Below, one piece after another: positions 1 through 7,630 of a stretch of 7,630 nt of DNA (position 1 is the stretch's first letter; each line of letters begins with the position of its first letter). The translations under genes and the position numbers were made by a program. The stretch comes from Candidatus Eiseniibacteriota bacterium (GTDB taxonomy: Bacteria > JAFGKV01), in NCBI GenBank assembly GCA_025453925.1, contig JALOPK010000296.1:1-7630 (forward strand). Direction: 5' to 3'. Below the pieces are notes generated by a model, which worked only from the letters and a program-made list of their open reading frames with translations, made no database searches and was not told the origin of the DNA.

Positions 1-925
1 TGGGCGATCCGAGCGCGAGAACATCCTCGTCACCGGTCGTCACAAAGCGCAGCCTCTGAGCATGCGGCGTGATCCAGGCATCGGTGTCCGTCTGCCGCCA
101 CGCACTCCCGTGGAGATCAACGCGATCCCATCGGTGAATGAGGCTCCAGCCACGTTCATCGAGCACCTCAGCGCGGAGCAGGGGCCTTCCGCCCTCCATC
201 ACCCGGAGGCCCGCCACCCAACAGCGCAGCCTCACACGGCCCGTTCGGGGGGGCAACTCGAAGGAGATGGTATCCGCGCCGGCCAGGGCCAGGGCGCTGC
301 GGAGAAACCCTCCACGCATGAGGCCGAACTTGCGGCGGCTCAACACCGCCCGTGCTTCCGGGCGCGGTGCCCGGCCTGCCCAGGACAGAAGGGCGTGCGC
401 GCGCCGCTCCTCCGCGGGGCTTGCACCGCGCCTCGACTCCAGCACCACCATGGACTGCAGGGGAGCCTCGCCCGTCACCCCGGAATGCAGAATCTCCAGC
501 GTACCTGAAAACAAGGAAGGATTGTGGAGTCGGAGTTCGCACCAGCTCTTGCCAAGTGGTCCGGAAATGGCAGTGACCGCCCTGCCGGCGGAGACTAGCC
601 GGGCCTCGACGATGCCACCGCGACCCCATCGCTTCGAGTAGGTGAGCCGGACCAGAACCGTGCGTCCGGGATTCAGAGATACCTCTTCCGAGAGGCCCGA
701 CGACTCATTCGGCCGCCGAGCGGGATCTCTCCCGTAGTCGCGGACGGCGAGCAGATCCCACGGGCCCGCTGCGACGCTGTCAGGGATGAGATCGAGGAGG
801 GTGATGATCCCGGCGTCGCGGCCCGGTTGCCCGCGCCCGCCGCAGGAGGCGCCGACGCCCAGTGCCGTTGCCACTGCCAGGGCTGCCGTGGCAGCTCTCA
901 GACGGCGGGCTCGATGGCGCGACAT
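1..925 (-). CDS. Exported lipoprotein-like protein, N-terminal 308 codons (possible sulfatase-type enzyme; gene runs off left edge)
   Basis: Reading the minus strand from the ATG at 925-923, the frame stays open to the window edge, so the gene is partial at its 3' end. The N-terminus has a basic n-region (several Arg in residues 2-10), an Ala-rich hydrophobic stretch (about 11-26) and Cys28 followed by two Gly. That suggests export, perhaps as a lipoprotein, although Gly at -3 makes a poor lipobox. The rest looks beta-rich: alternating hydrophobic strands at about 80-160 and 220-305, with no recognised catalytic motif. A short leader (LLDLIP), a beta-sandwich and a closing strand ending LALGSP resemble the N-terminal part of some large exported sulfatases of the alkaline phosphatase superfamily. 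The catalytic domain would lie outside the window, so this is a weak inference. The gene starts 3 bases after the kinase stop codon, indicating co-transcription and likely translational coupling. No clear Shine-Dalgarno is seen. Confidence 0.72.
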   Translation of the reverse strand, partial: MSRHRARRLRAATAALAVATALGVGASCGGRGQPGRDAGIITLLDLIPDSVAAGPWDLLAVRDYGRDPARRPNESSGLSEEVSLNPGRTVLVRLTYSKRWGRGGIVEARLVSAGRAVTAISGPLGKSWCELRLHNPSLFSGTLEILHSGVTGEAPLQSMVVLESRRGASPAEERRAHALLSWAGRAPRPEARAVLSRRKFGLMRGGFLRSALALAGADTISFELPPRTGRVRLRCWVAGLRVMEGGRPLLRAEVLDERGWSLIHRWDRVDLHGSAWRQTDTDAWITPHAQRLRFVTTGDEDVLALGSP

Positions 926-928
926 GCA

Positions 929-2986
929 CTACCCGGCACAGCTCGGAAGAATGATGTGAAAACTGCTTCCCTCGCCCTGGCGGCTCACCGCCCAGATTCG
1001 CCCTCCCATCTCCACGACGAAATCCCGGCACAAGGTGAGGCCCAGCCCCGATCCTTGCTCACCGATCGTGCCTCTGGTGCGGGGCGACCGATCAAGCTGG
1101 AAGAGGTTCCCGAGATCCGCCTCCGGGATGCCGACGCCACGGTCGGTCACGATGATCTCGGTCTCTCCGCCGGTGGTGGCGGCGCCCACGAGAACCTCAC
1201 TCCCCCGGAAACTGAACTTGATGGCATTGTCGACGAGATTCCTAAGCGCGACGCGCAGCATGTTGAGATCCGCTACCACGACCAGCGTCGGCGGAACGGT
1301 GGAAGAGAGCGCCACCGCTTTCGCGTCCGCGGCGTCCGAGAGTGCCGCAAGAATCTCATCCACGACCTCGCTCACACGCACCGTGGCCGGCTGCTTCTGA
1401 ATGGCTCCCGTCTGTGCTGTCGCCCATTGCAGGAGATTCTCGAGCAGCCGGTGAAGCCGTCGTGCCGACCCATTGATGGTCTCCATGTACTGCTGCAGCG
1501 TGCTGATGTCGAGGCCGTCGCAACAGGTGGCGAGCGAACGGGTAGTCGAGAGAAGCGATGCCAGGGGGCTGCGCAGGTCGTGGGCGATGATGGCAAAGAA
1601 ACGGTCTTTGGTTGCGTTGAGTTGCAGCAGCTCTCCGGTCTGGCGATTGAGAAGCTCCTGCTGATGCATCAGTTTCTTGTTCTGCTCTGCCAGGAGGGCG
1701 GTGTATCGCTTGTTGAGTGAGAGCTGCCGATAGAGCAGACTGGAGAACACGGCGATGGTCACGAACACGGCGCCGAAGGCGTAGATGACGATGCGCTGTT
1801 TCGAGAGTTCATCCTGCCGGCGATTCAACTCCTCGTCTTTCCTCTCGCCGGCGAGATGGAGTTCGAGGATCTCTCGTTCCAGCTTCTCCGACTCGTACTT
1901 GGCCCGCATGTCCTCGATGGCCTGGGTCTTTTCGGCGTTGTAGATGCTGTCGCCGAGCGCGGCGTACTGCTGGTGGAGCCTCAACGCGGAACGGTAGTCT
2001 CCCTGGGCCGAGGCGACTTCGGTGAGCCCTCGGCATGCGTCCATGGCCACGCGACGCGCACCGATCTCGAAGGCCAGATGCAGGCCCTCTTCGAGGTTCT
2101 CGCGGGCCTGATCGAAACGCTGAAGCTGCAGGAGCATGGTGCCAAGAACCACCCGGGTGGTGGCCATGAGGTTTCTGTTCCCCAGTGTGCGGGCGATTTC
2201 CAGCGCTTGCGACAGGTCCTCCAGAGCCGTCTCCACTCGTCCAAGCCGCTGGTGCACGACTCCCATGCTCTGCAGACACGCGGAGATGCCGCTTTTGTCG
2301 CCGAGCTCGGTGCGAATCTCCAGAGCCTTATGATAGTACTCCAGCGCATCCTCATACCGCAACCTGTCGAGGTACACGGCACCGATGCTGGAGAACGCCG
2401 ACGCCCGGTCTCGATCATACCCCTCCTGTTTGTAGAATTCGAGGGCTTTGAAGTAGTAACTCAGTGCCTCGTCGTAGTTCTGCTGGAGACGCATGATGAT
2501 GCCGATGTTGATGTAAATGTACGCCACTTCTGGTGTGATCGGCCGGCGTTCGTAGATGTTCAAGGCCCGCAGGAAGTACTCGAGGGCCTCATCGTAGAGG
2601 CTCCTGCTGTAATACACGGCGCCGATGTTGTTGAACGCGCGGGCGAGACCGGAGGAATCACCAAGGCTCTCGTACAGCGCCAGGGAGGTCAGGTGGGATC
2701 GCAAGGACTCCTGGTAGTCGCCCTGAACCCAGTGGTAGATGCCGAAGACCTGGTGACTTCTGGCGATACCGGATGTCAATCCAAGCCGGCTGGCCAAATC
2801 GAGGGCCTCCTGTGCGTAGGCCCGGGTCCTCTGGGGGTCAGTGCGGTGGGACTCGAAGGCAAGGCTGTTCAAGACAAAAACCCGCGCGGTGTCGGACGTG
2901 ATGCCGCGCAGAACCCCCGCCAGGCTGTCGGCCGCGGTCCGCGCGCCTGCCTGCGGCGCGCAGACAAGGAACGACAGCCAGATCAT
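929..2986 (-). CDS. TPR-containing sensor histidine kinase (685 aa)
   Basis: Membrane sensor kinase that should autophosphorylate and pass phosphate to a response regulator. Numbered from the ATG at 2986: a short signal-peptide-like segment (1-15, ending AGA); eight helical repeats of about 40 residues (35-346), with YDEAL/YEDAL motifs exactly 40 apart at Tyr131, Tyr171 and Tyr211; a charged coiled coil (350-398); one membrane segment (399-419); a second coiled coil; HisKA with H-box AHDLRSP, phosphoacceptor His469; then HATPase with N-box Asn587, G1 DRGVGIP (615-621) and G2 GSGLGL (645-650). All kinase motifs are intact, and there is no receiver domain. The TPRs are predicted to be periplasmic and may bind a protein or peptide partner. 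The frame extends upstream to a GTG at 3163, but a good promoter lies inside that extension, so 2986 is preferred. A TTG at 2989 is also possible. The chosen start lacks a clear Shine-Dalgarno and a basic n-region. The likely partner is the divergent NtrC-type regulator. Confidence 0.93.
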   Translation of the reverse strand: MIWLSFLVCAPQAGARTAADSLAGVLRGITSDTARVFVLNSLAFESHRTDPQRTRAYAQEALDLASRLGLTSGIARSHQVFGIYHWVQGDYQESLRSHLTSLALYESLGDSSGLARAFNNIGAVYYSRSLYDEALEYFLRALNIYERRPITPEVAYIYINIGIIMRLQQNYDEALSYYFKALEFYKQEGYDRDRASAFSSIGAVYLDRLRYEDALEYYHKALEIRTELGDKSGISACLQSMGVVHQRLGRVETALEDLSQALEIARTLGNRNLMATTRVVLGTMLLQLQRFDQARENLEEGLHLAFEIGARRVAMDACRGLTEVASAQGDYRSALRLHQQYAALGDSIYNAEKTQAIEDMRAKYESEKLEREILELHLAGERKDEELNRRQDELSKQRIVIYAFGAVFVTIAVFSSLLYRQLSLNKRYTALLAEQNKKLMHQQELLNRQTGELLQLNATKDRFFAIIAHDLRSPLASLLSTTRSLATCCDGLDISTLQQYMETINGSARRLHRLLENLLQWATAQTGAIQKQPATVRVSEVVDEILAALSDAADAKAVALSSTVPPTLVVVADLNMLRVALRNLVDNAIKFSFRGSEVLVGAATTGGETEIIVTDRGVGIPEADLGNLFQLDRSPRTRGTIGEQGSGLGLTLCRDFVVEMGGRIWAVSRQGEGSSFHIILPSCAG

Positions 2987-3104
2987 CAACTGGATTCGAC
3001 TGCGACACTTCTCAGAGGCACGATGATCCCCGCGGACTGAGATGAGGCCGGGCCGGAGTGGGCGGAGCTTCCACCGGCTGGCGGCTGCTGGGTGGCATGG
3101 GGGT

Positions 3105-3132
3105 ATTATCGACGGGTGGGCTCGACCGTCAA
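3105..3132 (-). promoter_or_regulatory. Sigma70-type promoter of the kinase operon
   Basis: On the minus strand TTGACG (3132-3127) and GATAAT (3110-3105) are separated by 16 bases. Each hexamer matches the sigma70 consensus at five of six positions, which is striking in this GC-rich DNA. Transcription would start near 3098, giving a leader of about 110 bases before the ATG at 2986. The promoter lies downstream of the alternative GTG start at 3163, which argues against that longer start. Confidence 0.55.
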
Positions 3133-3173
3133 GCACAGTGACAGTCTCTCCCCGGGGCTGCACCCACCCGGCC

Positions 3174-3209: not shown

Positions 3210-3234
3210 TGCCCGGCGTGTCGTGTCTCAGATC

Positions 3235-3263
3235 TTACGCGGGAGGCCGCGGCCTTGTATTAT
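3235..3263 (+). promoter_or_regulatory. Candidate promoter for the response regulator
   Basis: TATTAT at 3258-3263 is a five-of-six match to a -10 hexamer and stands out from its GC-rich surroundings. It would start transcription near 3270, about 55 bases before the ATG at 3325. The -35 position is poor (TTACGC at 3235-3240 with a 17-base spacer), so this promoter would be weak or activator-dependent if real. No sigma54 -24/-12 element was found upstream of this gene. Confidence 0.25.
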
Positions 3264-3313
3264 GGCGCGATGCTGTACGTTGCGCTCCCCTTCCATGCTC
3301 CGGCCGGTTCACC

Positions 3314-3318
3314 GAGGA
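3314..3318 (+). promoter_or_regulatory. Shine-Dalgarno deciding the regulator start at 3325
   Basis: GAGGA ends six bases before the ATG at 3325. The frame is open from an ATG at 3223, but the upstream 34 residues are Arg- and Cys-rich and unlike a receiver domain, while 3325 begins directly at the receiver's first strand. This settles the start. Confidence 0.75.
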
Positions 3319-3324
3319 CGTCGA

Positions 3325-4719
3325 ATGAACAAATCAGCTCAGATACTCATCGCCGACGATGACCCGGATGTCACCTCGTCCCTCGCTTTGGTGCTGCGGC
3401 AAGCGGGGCACCGCCCGCAGACGGTCTCGTCGCCGGCCGAGGCCATCGAGGCCCTGGAGGCTGCAGACTACGACCTGGTAATCCAGGACATGAACTACTC
3501 CCGGAGCACGTCCGGCCAGGAGGGCCTTGAACTGCTGCAGCGGATAAAGGGGAGATGGCCCCACGTTCCGGTCGTGCTGATCAGTGCGTGGGGAACGGTG
3601 GAACTGGCGGTGAGGGGGGTTAAGTCAGGGGCGGTGGACTTCATCACGAAACCATGGACACAGGAGCAGATCTCCCATGTGGTGCGCACCGCCCTGGGGA
3701 TGGCTGACCTCCGGCGCCATGGGCCCGCACGGGGGCCTCTTTCCCGGGCAGCCTTGGAGGAGCGGCACGACTTCGGGAGCCTCATCGGCGAGGACCAGGG
3801 GCTTCTCCGAGTACTGGATATCGTTGCGAAGGTCTCCGAGACCGATGTCCCGGTGCTCATCACGGGGGAGAGCGGCACGGGGAAGGAACTGGTGGCCGAG
3901 GCGATCTGGACCAACAGCTCCCGGCGGAACAAGCCGTTCGTCAAGGTGAACCTTGGGGGCATACCCCCCACGCTTTTCGAGAGCGAGATCTTCGGTCATG
4001 TGCGGGGGGCATTCACCGACGCCAAGCATACCCGTCTGGGGAGATTCGAGGCCGCGAACGGCGGCACCTTGTTCCTCGATGAGATAGGAGACATCGACCC
4101 GAGCTGTCAGGTGAAGCTGCTGCGGGTGTTGCAGGATCGCACCTTCGAGCGGGTCGGTTCGAGTGTGAGCACATCGGTGGACGTGCGGGTCGTCTCGGCG
4201 ACGAATCGTGATCTCGCGACCATGATCGCGTCGGGGGGATTCAGGGAGGATCTTCTCTTCCGCCTGAATCTGATCACGATTCACATGCCGCCCCTGCGTG
4301 AACGCAAGAGCGACATCCCACTTCTTGCAGCACGCTTTCTGCCTCAAGCCGCCTCGTTGTACCGGAAGGGCGATCTTCGACTCGCGCCGGATGCGTTGGA
4401 CTGGCTCGTCGCCCAGCGATGGCCGGGGAATGTGCGTCAGCTCAAACACGTGATCGAACGCACTGTCCTCCTTTCCTCGGCAGAGGAAATCACCGTGCAT
4501 GATCTCCTGGCCGCAGGGCAGGCGGAATTCGGCATACCGACTGCTGACGCCGCCGGGCTCGGCGACGGCATGACGCTCCAGGACATGGAACGGGCGATGA
4601 TCCTGCGGGCAATGGACGAATGCGACGGGAACCTCTCCAAGGTCGCCGAGGCGCTGGGGCTGAGCAGGGGAGCGTTGTACCGTCGGCTGGAGAAGCACGG
4701 TATCCACGCACCCCAGTGA
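3325..4719 (+). CDS. NtrC-family sigma54-dependent response regulator (464 aa)
   Basis: Cytoplasmic two-component regulator that, when phosphorylated, should form an ATPase ring and open sigma54 promoters. Residues 5-125 are a receiver domain: acidic pocket Asp12/Asp13, phosphoacceptor Asp55, Ser87 and Lys109. Residues 150-385 are the sigma54-interaction AAA+ domain: Walker A GESGTGKE (181-188), the sigma54-contact loop as GAFTDA (228-233) rather than GAFTGA, Walker B LFLDE with Asp252/Glu253, an arginine-finger region FREDLLFRL, and a WPGNVRQL sensor-2 motif (366-373). Residues 415-460 are a Fis-type helix-turn-helix. Length and domain order are standard and all catalytic residues are present. 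Divergent placement from the kinase suggests a cognate pair, and the downstream same-strand operon is a plausible target. Assignment to the family is secure; the regulon is not visible. Confidence 0.96.
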   Translation: MNKSAQILIADDDPDVTSSLALVLRQAGHRPQTVSSPAEAIEALEAADYDLVIQDMNYSRSTSGQEGLELLQRIKGRWPHVPVVLISAWGTVELAVRGVKSGAVDFITKPWTQEQISHVVRTALGMADLRRHGPARGPLSRAALEERHDFGSLIGEDQGLLRVLDIVAKVSETDVPVLITGESGTGKELVAEAIWTNSSRRNKPFVKVNLGGIPPTLFESEIFGHVRGAFTDAKHTRLGRFEAANGGTLFLDEIGDIDPSCQVKLLRVLQDRTFERVGSSVSTSVDVRVVSATNRDLATMIASGGFREDLLFRLNLITIHMPPLRERKSDIPLLAARFLPQAASLYRKGDLRLAPDALDWLVAQRWPGNVRQLKHVIERTVLLSSAEEITVHDLLAAGQAEFGIPTADAAGLGDGMTLQDMERAMILRAMDECDGNLSKVAEALGLSRGALYRRLEKHGIHAPQ

Positions 4720-4749
4720 TCGGAGCACCAGCACAACGACCTGCCCTAT

Positions 4750-4765
4750 CCGGGCCGCCGCCCGG
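4750..4765. repeat. Short GC hairpin between regulator and downstream operon
   Basis: CCGGGC and GCCCGG form a perfect 6-bp stem around a 4-base loop, about 30 bases after the regulator's stop codon. No run of T follows, so it is not a convincing intrinsic terminator. It may slow transcript decay or mean nothing. Confidence 0.3.
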
Positions 4766-4797
4766 TCGCGGGGAGTTACCGATGCCGACGGCGGGCC

Positions 4798-4813
4798 AGG
4801 CATGGGGGGTTCA
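4798..4813 (+). promoter_or_regulatory. Weak sigma54-like promoter candidate before the pyruvyl transferase gene
   Basis: Against the TGGCACG-N4-TTGCA consensus, this stretch (AGGCATGGGGGGTTCA) keeps GGCA, the following G and the final CA. It has the right GG-to-C spacing but carries T where the -13 G should be. Transcription would begin near 4823, just before the Shine-Dalgarno at 4831. The match is imperfect and is noted mainly because a sigma54 activator gene lies immediately upstream. Confidence 0.2.
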
Positions 4814-4830
4814 CCGGGGGACCCCGCTGC

Positions 4831-4835
4831 AGGAG
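4831..4835 (+). promoter_or_regulatory. Shine-Dalgarno deciding the start at 4841
   Basis: AGGAG lies five bases before the ATG at 4841, an ideal spacing. An upstream in-frame ATG at 4802 has no such site and adds 13 low-complexity residues. A GTG at 4862 is a less likely alternative. Confidence 0.75.
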
Positions 4836-4840
4836 ACCTG

Positions 4841-6091
4841 ATGAGAGGAAGTGGTTCTGCCGTGAGCGGTCCGCGCGTGCTCCTGGTCGGCTACAATGGC
4901 GCGAACAATACCGGTGCCGAGGCGCTGCTTCTATCGGATATCGCTGACTTCCTCCACGTGTTCGGCCCGGGCGTTTCCCTCACCGTGCCGACTCTGAATG
5001 AGTCGAACCTCCGGCGCTACGTCACTGAGGGGGCCCACCTTCGGATCGTCCCCATCTCGCCGGTGTTCATACGCCCGGTCATGCGCCTTGTCGCCAGTCA
5101 CGATCTCGTCGTGCTGGTCGAGGGCAGTACTTATATGGACACGTGGACGAGCGCATTGCTCTGGTACTTCCTGTGGGCCACTCGATGCGCCACCTCCCGG
5201 GGCATTCCCTGCATCGCCTATGCCGTGGACGCGGGTGCGCTCAGTCCTTTGAACCGCAGGCTGGTCCGGCGCATCGCCAGCGCCACCGACATGATCATCG
5301 TCCGGTCGGCCGCAGCGGCGGAACGGTTGCGCGGCTGGGGCGTCACCGCTCCCCTCCACGACACCGCCGACAACGCGTTCAACTTCGCCCCCCGGGAACG
5401 CGACCTCGACCTGTTGTCTCGGCTGTGGCCGCGACATGGGCGACCCGTGGTCGGCATCGCGCCGGTGGATTTCGCGCGGTGGCCCGTGGTGATTCGCCTC
5501 TGGGGAGGGAAGGAATCCTGCTACCGCTGGCCCTACTACTTCTCCCACTCGAAGTCCCGTTCGGCAGCCGCCGATCGCATGGCGCGGATGCTGGCGGCCT
5601 TCGCCGATTGGCTCGTCGAGAGTCTCGGCGCCGCGGTGGCGCTGTTCTGCATGGAGGAGTTGGACCAGCCCATGGCGCAGAGAATCCTCTCCATGATGCG
5701 TCATCCCGACGCCGCCATGACGTTCTCCGCCCAACGCCTGGATGCATCCCAGATGACCGCCGTCCTTCGCTCCCTTGACTACCTCGTCACCTCTCGGTTC
5801 CACGCCGCCGTGCTCTCTCTACGGGCATCGGTGCCGCAGATCGCCATCGGCCATGATCTCAGGCTGCCGACCCTTTATGCGGATCTCGGGATCCGCGACG
5901 AATTCTTCCTGGAGCACCGCGCCGTCGACCTCGATGTCCTCCAGGCCCGTTTCGACGACATGCGCGTCAGGGAGGTGGAGCTCCGGCGGCGCCTCGCTGA
6001 GGGCCACGCGGCGCACGCCGGGCGTGCGGCGCAGAACCGCCTCCTGCTGGCCCGATTCGCCCGGCAGGCTGCACTACGGACGGTTGAATGA
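4841..6091 (+). CDS. Polysaccharide pyruvyl transferase family protein (416 aa)
   Basis: Classical members of this family transfer a pyruvyl ketal from phosphoenolpyruvate to sugars of exopolysaccharide or cell-wall glycan. The N-terminus (12-30) has the first Rossmann strand and a Gly/Asn loop (VLLVGYNGANNTGAEALL). A second segment, HDLVVLVEGSTYMDT (about 87-101), occupies the place of the usual GGG-x4-D motif but reads E94-G95-S96 with Asp100. The C-terminal half has the hallmark block LDYLVTSRFHAAVLS with Arg319 and His321, followed by SVPQIAIGHD. No signal peptide or membrane helix is evident, so it should act in the cytoplasm. Length is normal for the family. It overlaps the next gene by four bases (ATGA), so the two are very likely translationally coupled. 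Family membership is fairly sure. The acceptor and even the donor are uncertain because the motifs diverge and the partner is a lipid-type enzyme. Confidence 0.88.
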   Translation: MRGSGSAVSGPRVLLVGYNGANNTGAEALLLSDIADFLHVFGPGVSLTVPTLNESNLRRYVTEGAHLRIVPISPVFIRPVMRLVASHDLVVLVEGSTYMDTWTSALLWYFLWATRCATSRGIPCIAYAVDAGALSPLNRRLVRRIASATDMIIVRSAAAAERLRGWGVTAPLHDTADNAFNFAPRERDLDLLSRLWPRHGRPVVGIAPVDFARWPVVIRLWGGKESCYRWPYYFSHSKSRSAAADRMARMLAAFADWLVESLGAAVALFCMEELDQPMAQRILSMMRHPDAAMTFSAQRLDASQMTAVLRSLDYLVTSRFHAAVLSLRASVPQIAIGHDLRLPTLYADLGIRDEFFLEHRAVDLDVLQARFDDMRVREVELRRRLAEGHAAHAGRAAQNRLLLARFARQAALRTVE

Positions 6092-7630
6092 TCCTTGTGA
6101 CCGGCGCGACAGGGTTCGTGGGCACACGGGTCATCCGCGAGTTGCTGCACCTCCGATTGCCGATCGCCGCCGTCGTGCGCACCCCCCCTGACGAAGCCGC
6201 TGCCAGACTCACCCGGGCATGGTGGGATTGGCCCGACCTCGCGGCGCTCATCGGCACCGCCGTTCATCCGTGTGCCGGGGACCTGACGAAGCCGGGCTTA
6301 GGCCTCAGTCCGGCCGATGCTGCGCTCCTGCGGGACACCTCGCACGTCGTGCATGTCGCCGCGGACATACGGTTGCAGGCACCATTGGAGGAACTCCGGG
6401 GCGTGAACCGTGATGGCACCGGACGAGTACTTGAACTCGCCCGTTCCTTCCGCTCGCTGCAGCGAGTCCTCCACGTGTCCACCGCCTACGTGGCGGGGAA
6501 CCGGCCCGGCTCTGTCGGGGAACAAGACCTGAGCGCCGAATTCGGGTTCAGAAACGGCTATGAGCTGAGCAAATTCGAAGGCGAGCAGCTCGTCCGAGGC
6601 GCCATGGCCTCCCTGCCCGCGACCGTCGTCCGGCCCGGCATGGTGGTCGGCGATTCCGTGACCGGTGCCGTGGCGACCTTCAACACGTTCTACCTCCCGG
6701 TTCGGCTCTACCTGCAGAGGCGTCTGCACCTGGCGCCGGTGAGTCCATCCTTGCGTCTCCCGCTGGTGCCGGTGGACTATGTCGCGCGGTCCATCGCCGT
6801 TTTGCTGACCGACCCGCGGGCGGCCGGGTCGACCGTCCATTTGGTGCCCCCGCATGAGGCCTCCCCCACTGTCTCGGCACTCGTTGATGCAGTCCGCGGG
6901 TGGGCACTCCATCACCTTGATGTTCGGCTTCCACGGCCCCTGTTTCTGCCGATACCGGTCCCCCGTCGCCTGAGGACGTTCAGAGCCGGCCATTCCCCGG
7001 GAGGCACACTTTGGGCATTGCTCCCCTACTCCTTCGGGCTGCGACTTCAAAGAGAGAACGCCGATCGCCTGCTCGGCCCCTACGGCCATGACTGGCGCAC
7101 AATGCTCCCGGCACTGCTGTCGTATGCGGTGGCCCGCGGCTTCATGCACCGAGCCGAGCGCACGGTGCATGAACAGGTGGCCTTCAGACTCAGTCGTTCC
7201 TCACGGCCCATCCGCTACCACGATATCGTCGATGGCAAGGTGGAAACCCTGCCGGCGTCGCACGTGGCGGCGGCGATCCGGGCAGCCGGGCGCTCGCTCC
7301 ATGCGCTGGGCGTCCGCAAGGGCGATCGTGTATCCATCGTCGGCCCGAATTGCTCACGGTATCTCGCCATCGACGTTGCCCTCGGTCTTGCGGGTGCCGT
7401 CAGCGTGCCGCTCTACCCTACCACACCACCCGCCGAACTGCACCGCCTCATTGCCGCCGCCGAGGCCCGGCTGGCCTTCGTATGCGGTGACGCCGCGGAT
7501 GCGCTGTGTGTCAACGCGGGGGTTCGAATCGTCTCGTTCGGCCGCGATCCCCCTCTGAATCCGGGTGTGATGGCATGGGATGCGTTCCTCAAGGCGGGCG
7601 AGGGCACCGCCGGTTTCTCCTGCCTGGTAC
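6088..7630 (+). CDS. Thioester-reductase/SDR plus acyl-adenylation fusion, N-terminal 514 residues (runs off right edge)
   Basis: The frame starting at ATG 6088 is open to the window end. Residues 1-270 form an extended NAD(P)-dependent SDR of the thioester-reductase/fatty acyl-CoA reductase type: dinucleotide motif TGATGFVG (5-12), HVVHVAAD (87-93), STAYV (131-135) and catalytic Tyr158-x3-Lys162 followed by VVRPGMVVGDS (180-190). Such domains reduce acyl thioesters to aldehyde or alcohol. Residues 285-355 are a basic, aromatic linker with no motif I recognise. From about 360 an AMP-binding (acyl-CoA synthetase/adenylation) domain begins: GVRKGDRVSIVGPN (408-421) and GLAGAVSVPLYPTTPPAEL (433-451). 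Its ATP-binding signature would lie beyond the edge. Carboxylic acid reductases have the reverse order (adenylation, carrier, reductase). Myxobacterial ElbD-type ether-lipid enzymes combine these activities in one chain, as far as I recall. Later carrier or acyltransferase domains may follow off-window. The start overlaps the upstream stop as ATGA. Confidence 0.9.
   Translation, partial: MILVTGATGFVGTRVIRELLHLRLPIAAVVRTPPDEAAARLTRAWWDWPDLAALIGTAVHPCAGDLTKPGLGLSPADAALLRDTSHVVHVAADIRLQAPLEELRGVNRDGTGRVLELARSFRSLQRVLHVSTAYVAGNRPGSVGEQDLSAEFGFRNGYELSKFEGEQLVRGAMASLPATVVRPGMVVGDSVTGAVATFNTFYLPVRLYLQRRLHLAPVSPSLRLPLVPVDYVARSIAVLLTDPRAAGSTVHLVPPHEASPTVSALVDAVRGWALHHLDVRLPRPLFLPIPVPRRLRTFRAGHSPGGTLWALLPYSFGLRLQRENADRLLGPYGHDWRTMLPALLSYAVARGFMHRAERTVHEQVAFRLSRSSRPIRYHDIVDGKVETLPASHVAAAIRAAGRSLHALGVRKGDRVSIVGPNCSRYLAIDVALGLAGAVSVPLYPTTPPAELHRLIAAAEARLAFVCGDAADALCVNAGVRIVSFGRDPPLNPGVMAWDAFLKAGEGTAGFSCLV

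Follow-up and report, generated by a model that had tools for sequence, protein, structure and literature searches.

Gene content of the locus

The window analysed here is a whole contig (G000:C336), 7,630 bases from end to end, of a 3.9 Mb draft genome that is 82% complete. Its features are collected in Table 1. At the left edge, a 308-codon open frame (2-925, minus strand) has no Pfam or NCBIfam match. The histidine kinase encoded next to it is a possible partner of the NtrC-type response regulator. Since the regulator gene is also found upstream of the operon described below in the same-genus genome G001, sigma-54 control of this operon is possible.

Table 1. Features of the window (residue numbers refer to the fusion protein)
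Feature	Position	Strand	Observation
TPR-sensor histidine kinase, divergent	929..3163	-	Pfam
NtrC-type response regulator (receiver, sigma-54 AAA+, Fis HTH)	3223..4719	+	Pfam; upstream of the operon also in G001
Polysaccharide-pyruvyl-transferase-like gene	4802..6091	+	Shares ATGA (6088-6091) with the start of the fusion; immediate upstream neighbour in all genomes examined but L066
Fusion gene, thioester-reductase SDR and AMP-binding ligase	6088..7630	+	Breaks off at residue 514, where the contig stops; expected ~910-930 residues
NAD_binding_4 / thioester reductase domain, residues 4-236	6097..6795	+	Pfam E 5.5e-53; TIGR01746 161 bits
Rossmann motif TGATGFVG, residues 5-12	6100..6123	+	Motif reading
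SDR Ser/Thr motif STAYV, residues 131-135 (STAYVAG from 131)	6478..6492	+	Motif reading
SDR catalytic Y158-x3-K162 (YELSK)	6559..6573	+	Invariant in alignment A3
Reductase C-terminal subdomain and junction, residues 271-360	6898..7167	+	Kept in all fusions; similar tail in stand-alone reductases (by eye)
AMP-binding (acyl-adenylating) domain start, residues 361-514	7168..7629	+	Pfam match at residues 386-469

The gene at the right edge combines a reductase (R) and an acyl-adenylating (A) domain. Its reading frame of 514 codons is open up to the last base, and because the contig itself stops there, the gene is cut inside the ligase domain, just 5' of the ATP signature motif. The sequence-only reading had described an SDR/thioester reductase with intact motifs, followed in the same frame by the opening of an AMP-binding ligase, and this two-part reductase-ligase gene is confirmed. 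The R domain scores 180 bits against PF07993 (NAD_binding_4), for which the gathering score is 20.1, and has the TGxxGxxG and YxxxK motifs at the residues originally given. The TIGR01746 thioester reductase scores of the window and of the relative L036 (161 and 178 bits) both lie below the curated cut-off of 213. The A-domain match covers profile positions 20-108 of 384 with an E-value of 5.7e-16, and the gathering score of PF00501 is passed by the partial window gene as well as by its relatives.

The complete fusion and the integrity of the junction

Relatives of the fusion are found in the same-genus genome G001 (56% identity to the window gene over residues 2-504), in Bipolaricaulota (L034, L035 and L067, the last in genome G466), in Chloroflexota (L036 and, in genome G278, L066) and in genome G647 (L092). 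The family spans at least three bacterial groups, namely the phylum of the window, Bipolaricaulota and Chloroflexota, in addition to G647. The fusion is present in 2 of 400 Chloroflexota genomes, in 3 of 100 from the phylum of the Bipolaricaulota and in 4 of 386 genomes of a sample with mostly one genome per family; these counts apply at strict E-value limits, which more distant fusions may escape. The phylum of the window organism is represented by three genomes in the collection. The L034 region is very close to L035 (Acetothermia), and the genome is listed in the phylum of G061, so that the Thermotoga sp. label of L034 is probably wrong.

Six members are full-length, with 912-963 amino acids. 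In the five scanned with Pfam (L034, L036, L066, L067 and L092), NAD_binding_4 is followed by AMP-binding and AMP-binding_C_3, and then the protein ends. A search for further domains downstream, which the sequence-only reading had called for, finds no Sterile (PF03015), PP-binding, Acyltransferase or HAD domain in these five proteins, and the phosphopantetheine-site pattern [LF]GG[DHN]S[LI] has no match. The full-length relatives carry TGAxGxxG, STAYV and YxxxK in the R domain and TSGTTG, YGLTE, GRKK-type and LTxNLK(L/I) motifs in the A domain. The ANL motifs (P-loop, YGLTE, TGD and the C-terminal lysine) are observed in these full-length relatives only. The ATP signature reads YTSGTTGxPKG in five of the six; the P-loop of the sixth, L066, is altered to YTSGTTGHARG and is without the usual lysine. 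An AlphaFold model of the fusion has a mean pLDDT of 57, too poor for interdomain geometry or contacts, and Foldseek with this model returns CAR A domains and the MxaA R domain, which only repeats the sequence result.

The junction between the two domains is common to all relatives found, which span it in a single frame. Over residues 271-360, identity between the window and seven relatives, each from a different genome, is 44-58%; over residues 361-505, it is 41-47% for the same seven. An assembly join within 7000-7250, considered at the outset as a possible source of the fusion, is excluded because these seven relatives from separate genomes have the same junction. The G+C content by codon position shows no shift along the gene. 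By eye, the interdomain linker resembles the C-terminal part of stand-alone reductases. No stop or frameshift of the kind that could have closed the frame just outside the window is seen in the intact relatives, which are open over their full length. The G001 copy has noisy sequence close to its own contig end.

The missing part of the window gene could be located in part. With the G001 GMC oxidoreductase as query, contig C182 (3,374 bases) is found in the window genome; its minus strand opens with 33 codons (RMKQPERDGLYADVGTPPGVQHMGGSHPREGCT) and a stop, which resemble the end of the fusion in G001, GLYQGSPLPGVHHVGTLFSEAGS, likewise closed by a stop. After this stop, C182 continues with a small-protein gene overlapping as GTGA, a GMC oxidoreductase and an adenine-deaminase-like gene. 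As C182 holds the last 33 codons of a fusion and the genes that usually follow, the sequences make it very likely that C336 and C182 flank one assembly gap, into which ~370 residues of the window gene fall. In G001, the two halves of the gene (contigs C129 and C297) join around query residue 700, and therefore there is no space for an additional domain. The regions following the fusion on C182 (L091) and on C297 of G001 (L094) both contain a small protein predicted to be V4R/TRAPPC3-like, a GMC oxidoreductase and an adenine-deaminase-like gene.

A conserved four-gene operon

The fusion lies in an operon with the order pyruvyl-transferase-like gene, fusion, small protein of ~180-200 amino acids and GMC oxidoreductase. 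This operon is complete in L034, L035, L036, L067 and L092, and the order is the same in G001 and in the window genome, where it is split across two contigs each. The gene ends mostly overlap or nearly touch. L066 is the exception and contains the fusion without the three neighbours. The conserved operon of four genes shows no carrier gene. A CrtI-like FAD oxidoreductase gene upstream of the operon is seen only in the Bipolaricaulota members (L034 5172-6680, L035 2-1399, L067 ~3957-5459).

The pyruvyl-transferase-like protein is highly conserved, with 46-67% identity; a sequence search returns no solved relative on which its catalytic residues could be mapped. The GMC oxidoreductase contains a C-x2-C-x3-C motif and has weak 4Fe-4S matches. 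The small protein matches no Pfam family above cut-off (ATC_hydrolase appears below cut-off only) and has no solved relative by sequence. Its predicted fold (mean pLDDT 79) resembles TRAPPC3 with palmitate and V4R sensor domains with Z values of ~10-11, at a Foldseek E-value of only 4.5e-3, and we treat this predicted V4R/TRAPPC3-like fold as a lead. The TRAPPC3/V4R fold has a greasy pocket, and by analogy the small protein may hold an acyl chain. Taken together, the conserved neighbours suggest an undescribed lipid-type pathway distinct from the formation of ether lipids, waxes or fatty alcohols.

Relation to known reductase-ligase enzymes

Carboxylic acid reductases (CARs) carry their domains in the order A-T-R, with the reductase last (PMC5396282). 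The plasmid-borne CARs, in which the A domain precedes the R domain, bear out what had been said of the CAR order. Matches are found in 2,388 plasmid records; only two of them covered at least 80% of the query, both CAR-type with the A domain first. Of the original interpretation, a reductase-first, self-contained enzyme for activated carboxylic acids is supported.

Fusions and CARs share the chemistries of adenylation and thioester reduction. Both domains of the fusion resemble CAR in the PDB comparison, and CAR (5mso/5msc) is the best single match to the whole protein, as would be expected if the fusion were a circularly permuted CAR in which the R domain shifted to the front and the carrier was lost. 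However, the order is R-A and not A-carrier-R, the central phosphopantetheine-binding domain is missing and the identity to CAR is only ~25-33%. In pairwise comparison the R domain is closer to stand-alone thioester reductases (38-40%) than to CAR R domains (27-33%), and the A domain is closer to a Tsukamurella long-chain ligase (34%) than to CAR A domains (26-27%); its identity to an ElbD-like A domain is 28%. CARs form a fully supported branch of their own in both the R and the A tree, and the grouping of the fusion A domains with those of CARs reaches just 35% support. We therefore regard a permuted CAR as very unlikely. The fusions are not assigned to the CAR family, given the reversed order and a search that found neither the PP-binding domain nor its site pattern.

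ElbD of Myxococcus xanthus, involved in ether lipid formation, is built as FAR-ACS-ACP-acyltransferase (PMC9131029). It also starts with a reductase followed by an acyl-CoA-synthetase-type domain, and the reductase-first order is therefore not new in itself. From this likeness, the fusion could be a shortened ElbD, an ether-lipid enzyme minus carrier and acyltransferase, and ElbD-type proteins lacking domains do exist: L095 (987-3686) encodes a variant with reductase, Sterile and acyltransferase domains, has neither A domain nor carrier and is followed by a HAD-like frame. The ElbD-type homologue L068 contains NAD_binding_4 and Sterile, AMP-binding, AMP-binding_C, PP-binding and Acyltransferase, and a HAD-like gene comes after it. 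In contrast, the fusions have no Sterile domain after the reductase, their A domain ends in AMP-binding_C_3 instead of AMP-binding_C, and they stop where ElbD continues with a carrier and an AGPAT-type acyltransferase. The fusions are not flanked by HAD or epimerase genes as in elb loci. In the R-domain tree the fusions lie on one side of a branch with a support of 93/96, in the A-domain tree with an SH-aLRT of 100, and in both trees the ElbD-like proteins, as well as the CARs, are on separate branches. A shortened ElbD is thus highly improbable, and the ElbD-like assignment proposed from the sequence is not supported. Membership in the ElbD family is rejected, as the defining domains are missing and R and A fall into separate clades.

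Stand-alone thioester or acyl-CoA reductases (TIGR01746, PRK07201/AcrB-like) and the R domain of MxaA (PDB 4u7w) share the R-domain motifs with the fusions, but no ligase is joined to them in the order of the fusion, and the fusions score below the TIGR01746 cut-off. In the R tree, the stand-alone reductase L071 groups inside the fork formed by the fusions, which leaves both a later split of the fusion and an older origin possible. For the A domain, single-sequence matching places CoA ligases nearest. Long-chain ligases have the A-domain motifs in common with the fusions; they are stand-alone enzymes, however, and their family models match the fusions below the curated cut-offs. The suggestion of a new arrangement stands only in part, as ElbD is a precedent for the domain order. 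What may be new is the carrier-less two-domain form, together with its separate ancestry and the fixed operon; no published description of such a fusion or operon was found in the open-access literature.

Proposed function

From sequence, with a probability of roughly 60%, the fusion would be a carrier-less two-domain acid-to-aldehyde enzyme, in which a thioester reductase precedes a fatty-acyl-CoA-synthetase-like domain and feeds the partners in the operon. By homology to CAR and ANL enzymology (PMC5396282), the A domain would convert an acid and ATP to acyl-AMP. The acyl group would then be moved from AMP to CoA, giving acyl-CoA; we propose CoA as the relay because a carrier is missing and the A domain is akin to CoA ligases, and a free acyl carrier protein could take its place. 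The R domain on the same polypeptide would take over the acyl-CoA and reduce it with NAD(P)H to the aldehyde, possibly the alcohol. Judging from gene order, this product may be handed to the GMC oxidoreductase, the pyruvyl-transferase-like protein and the V4R/TRAPPC3-like protein and end up in a lipid-like compound.

Two other modes of action would use the same domains differently. Among PDB structures, the R domain comes nearest to the terminal reductase of MxaA, whose substrates are chains bound to a carrier. In CARs, a carrier is loaded by the A domain. By analogy, the A domain might load a separate holo-ACP, from which the R domain would release the chain as in carrier-based reductases. 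Such a carrier in trans is unlikely, as the four-gene operon contains no visible carrier gene and the nearest matches of the A domain are CoA ligases. Alternatively, the two activities might not act in series, with the A domain supplying acyl-CoA or acyl-AMP to another enzyme of the operon and the R domain reducing a different thioester. GMC oxidoreductases are expected to oxidize alcohols, the direction opposite to that of the R domain; the operon may therefore use several substrates. The fixed fusion over several phyla, however, suggests channelling from one domain to the other, and we judge separate activities decidedly unlikely.

Beyond the acid-to-aldehyde activity, it is conceivable, though rather doubtful at present, that a four-gene operon shared between phyla encodes an undescribed pathway centred on the fusion, with a hitherto unknown type of lipid bearing pyruvate or an aldehyde as its product. 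If the proposed two-domain activity is correct, a chain of ~930 residues would need no phosphopantetheinylated carrier domain to convert free fatty acids to aldehydes. Such an enzyme would be easier to use than CARs, which require a partner transferase. The fusion marks a conserved operon across several bacterial phyla, including one of which the collection contains just three genomes.
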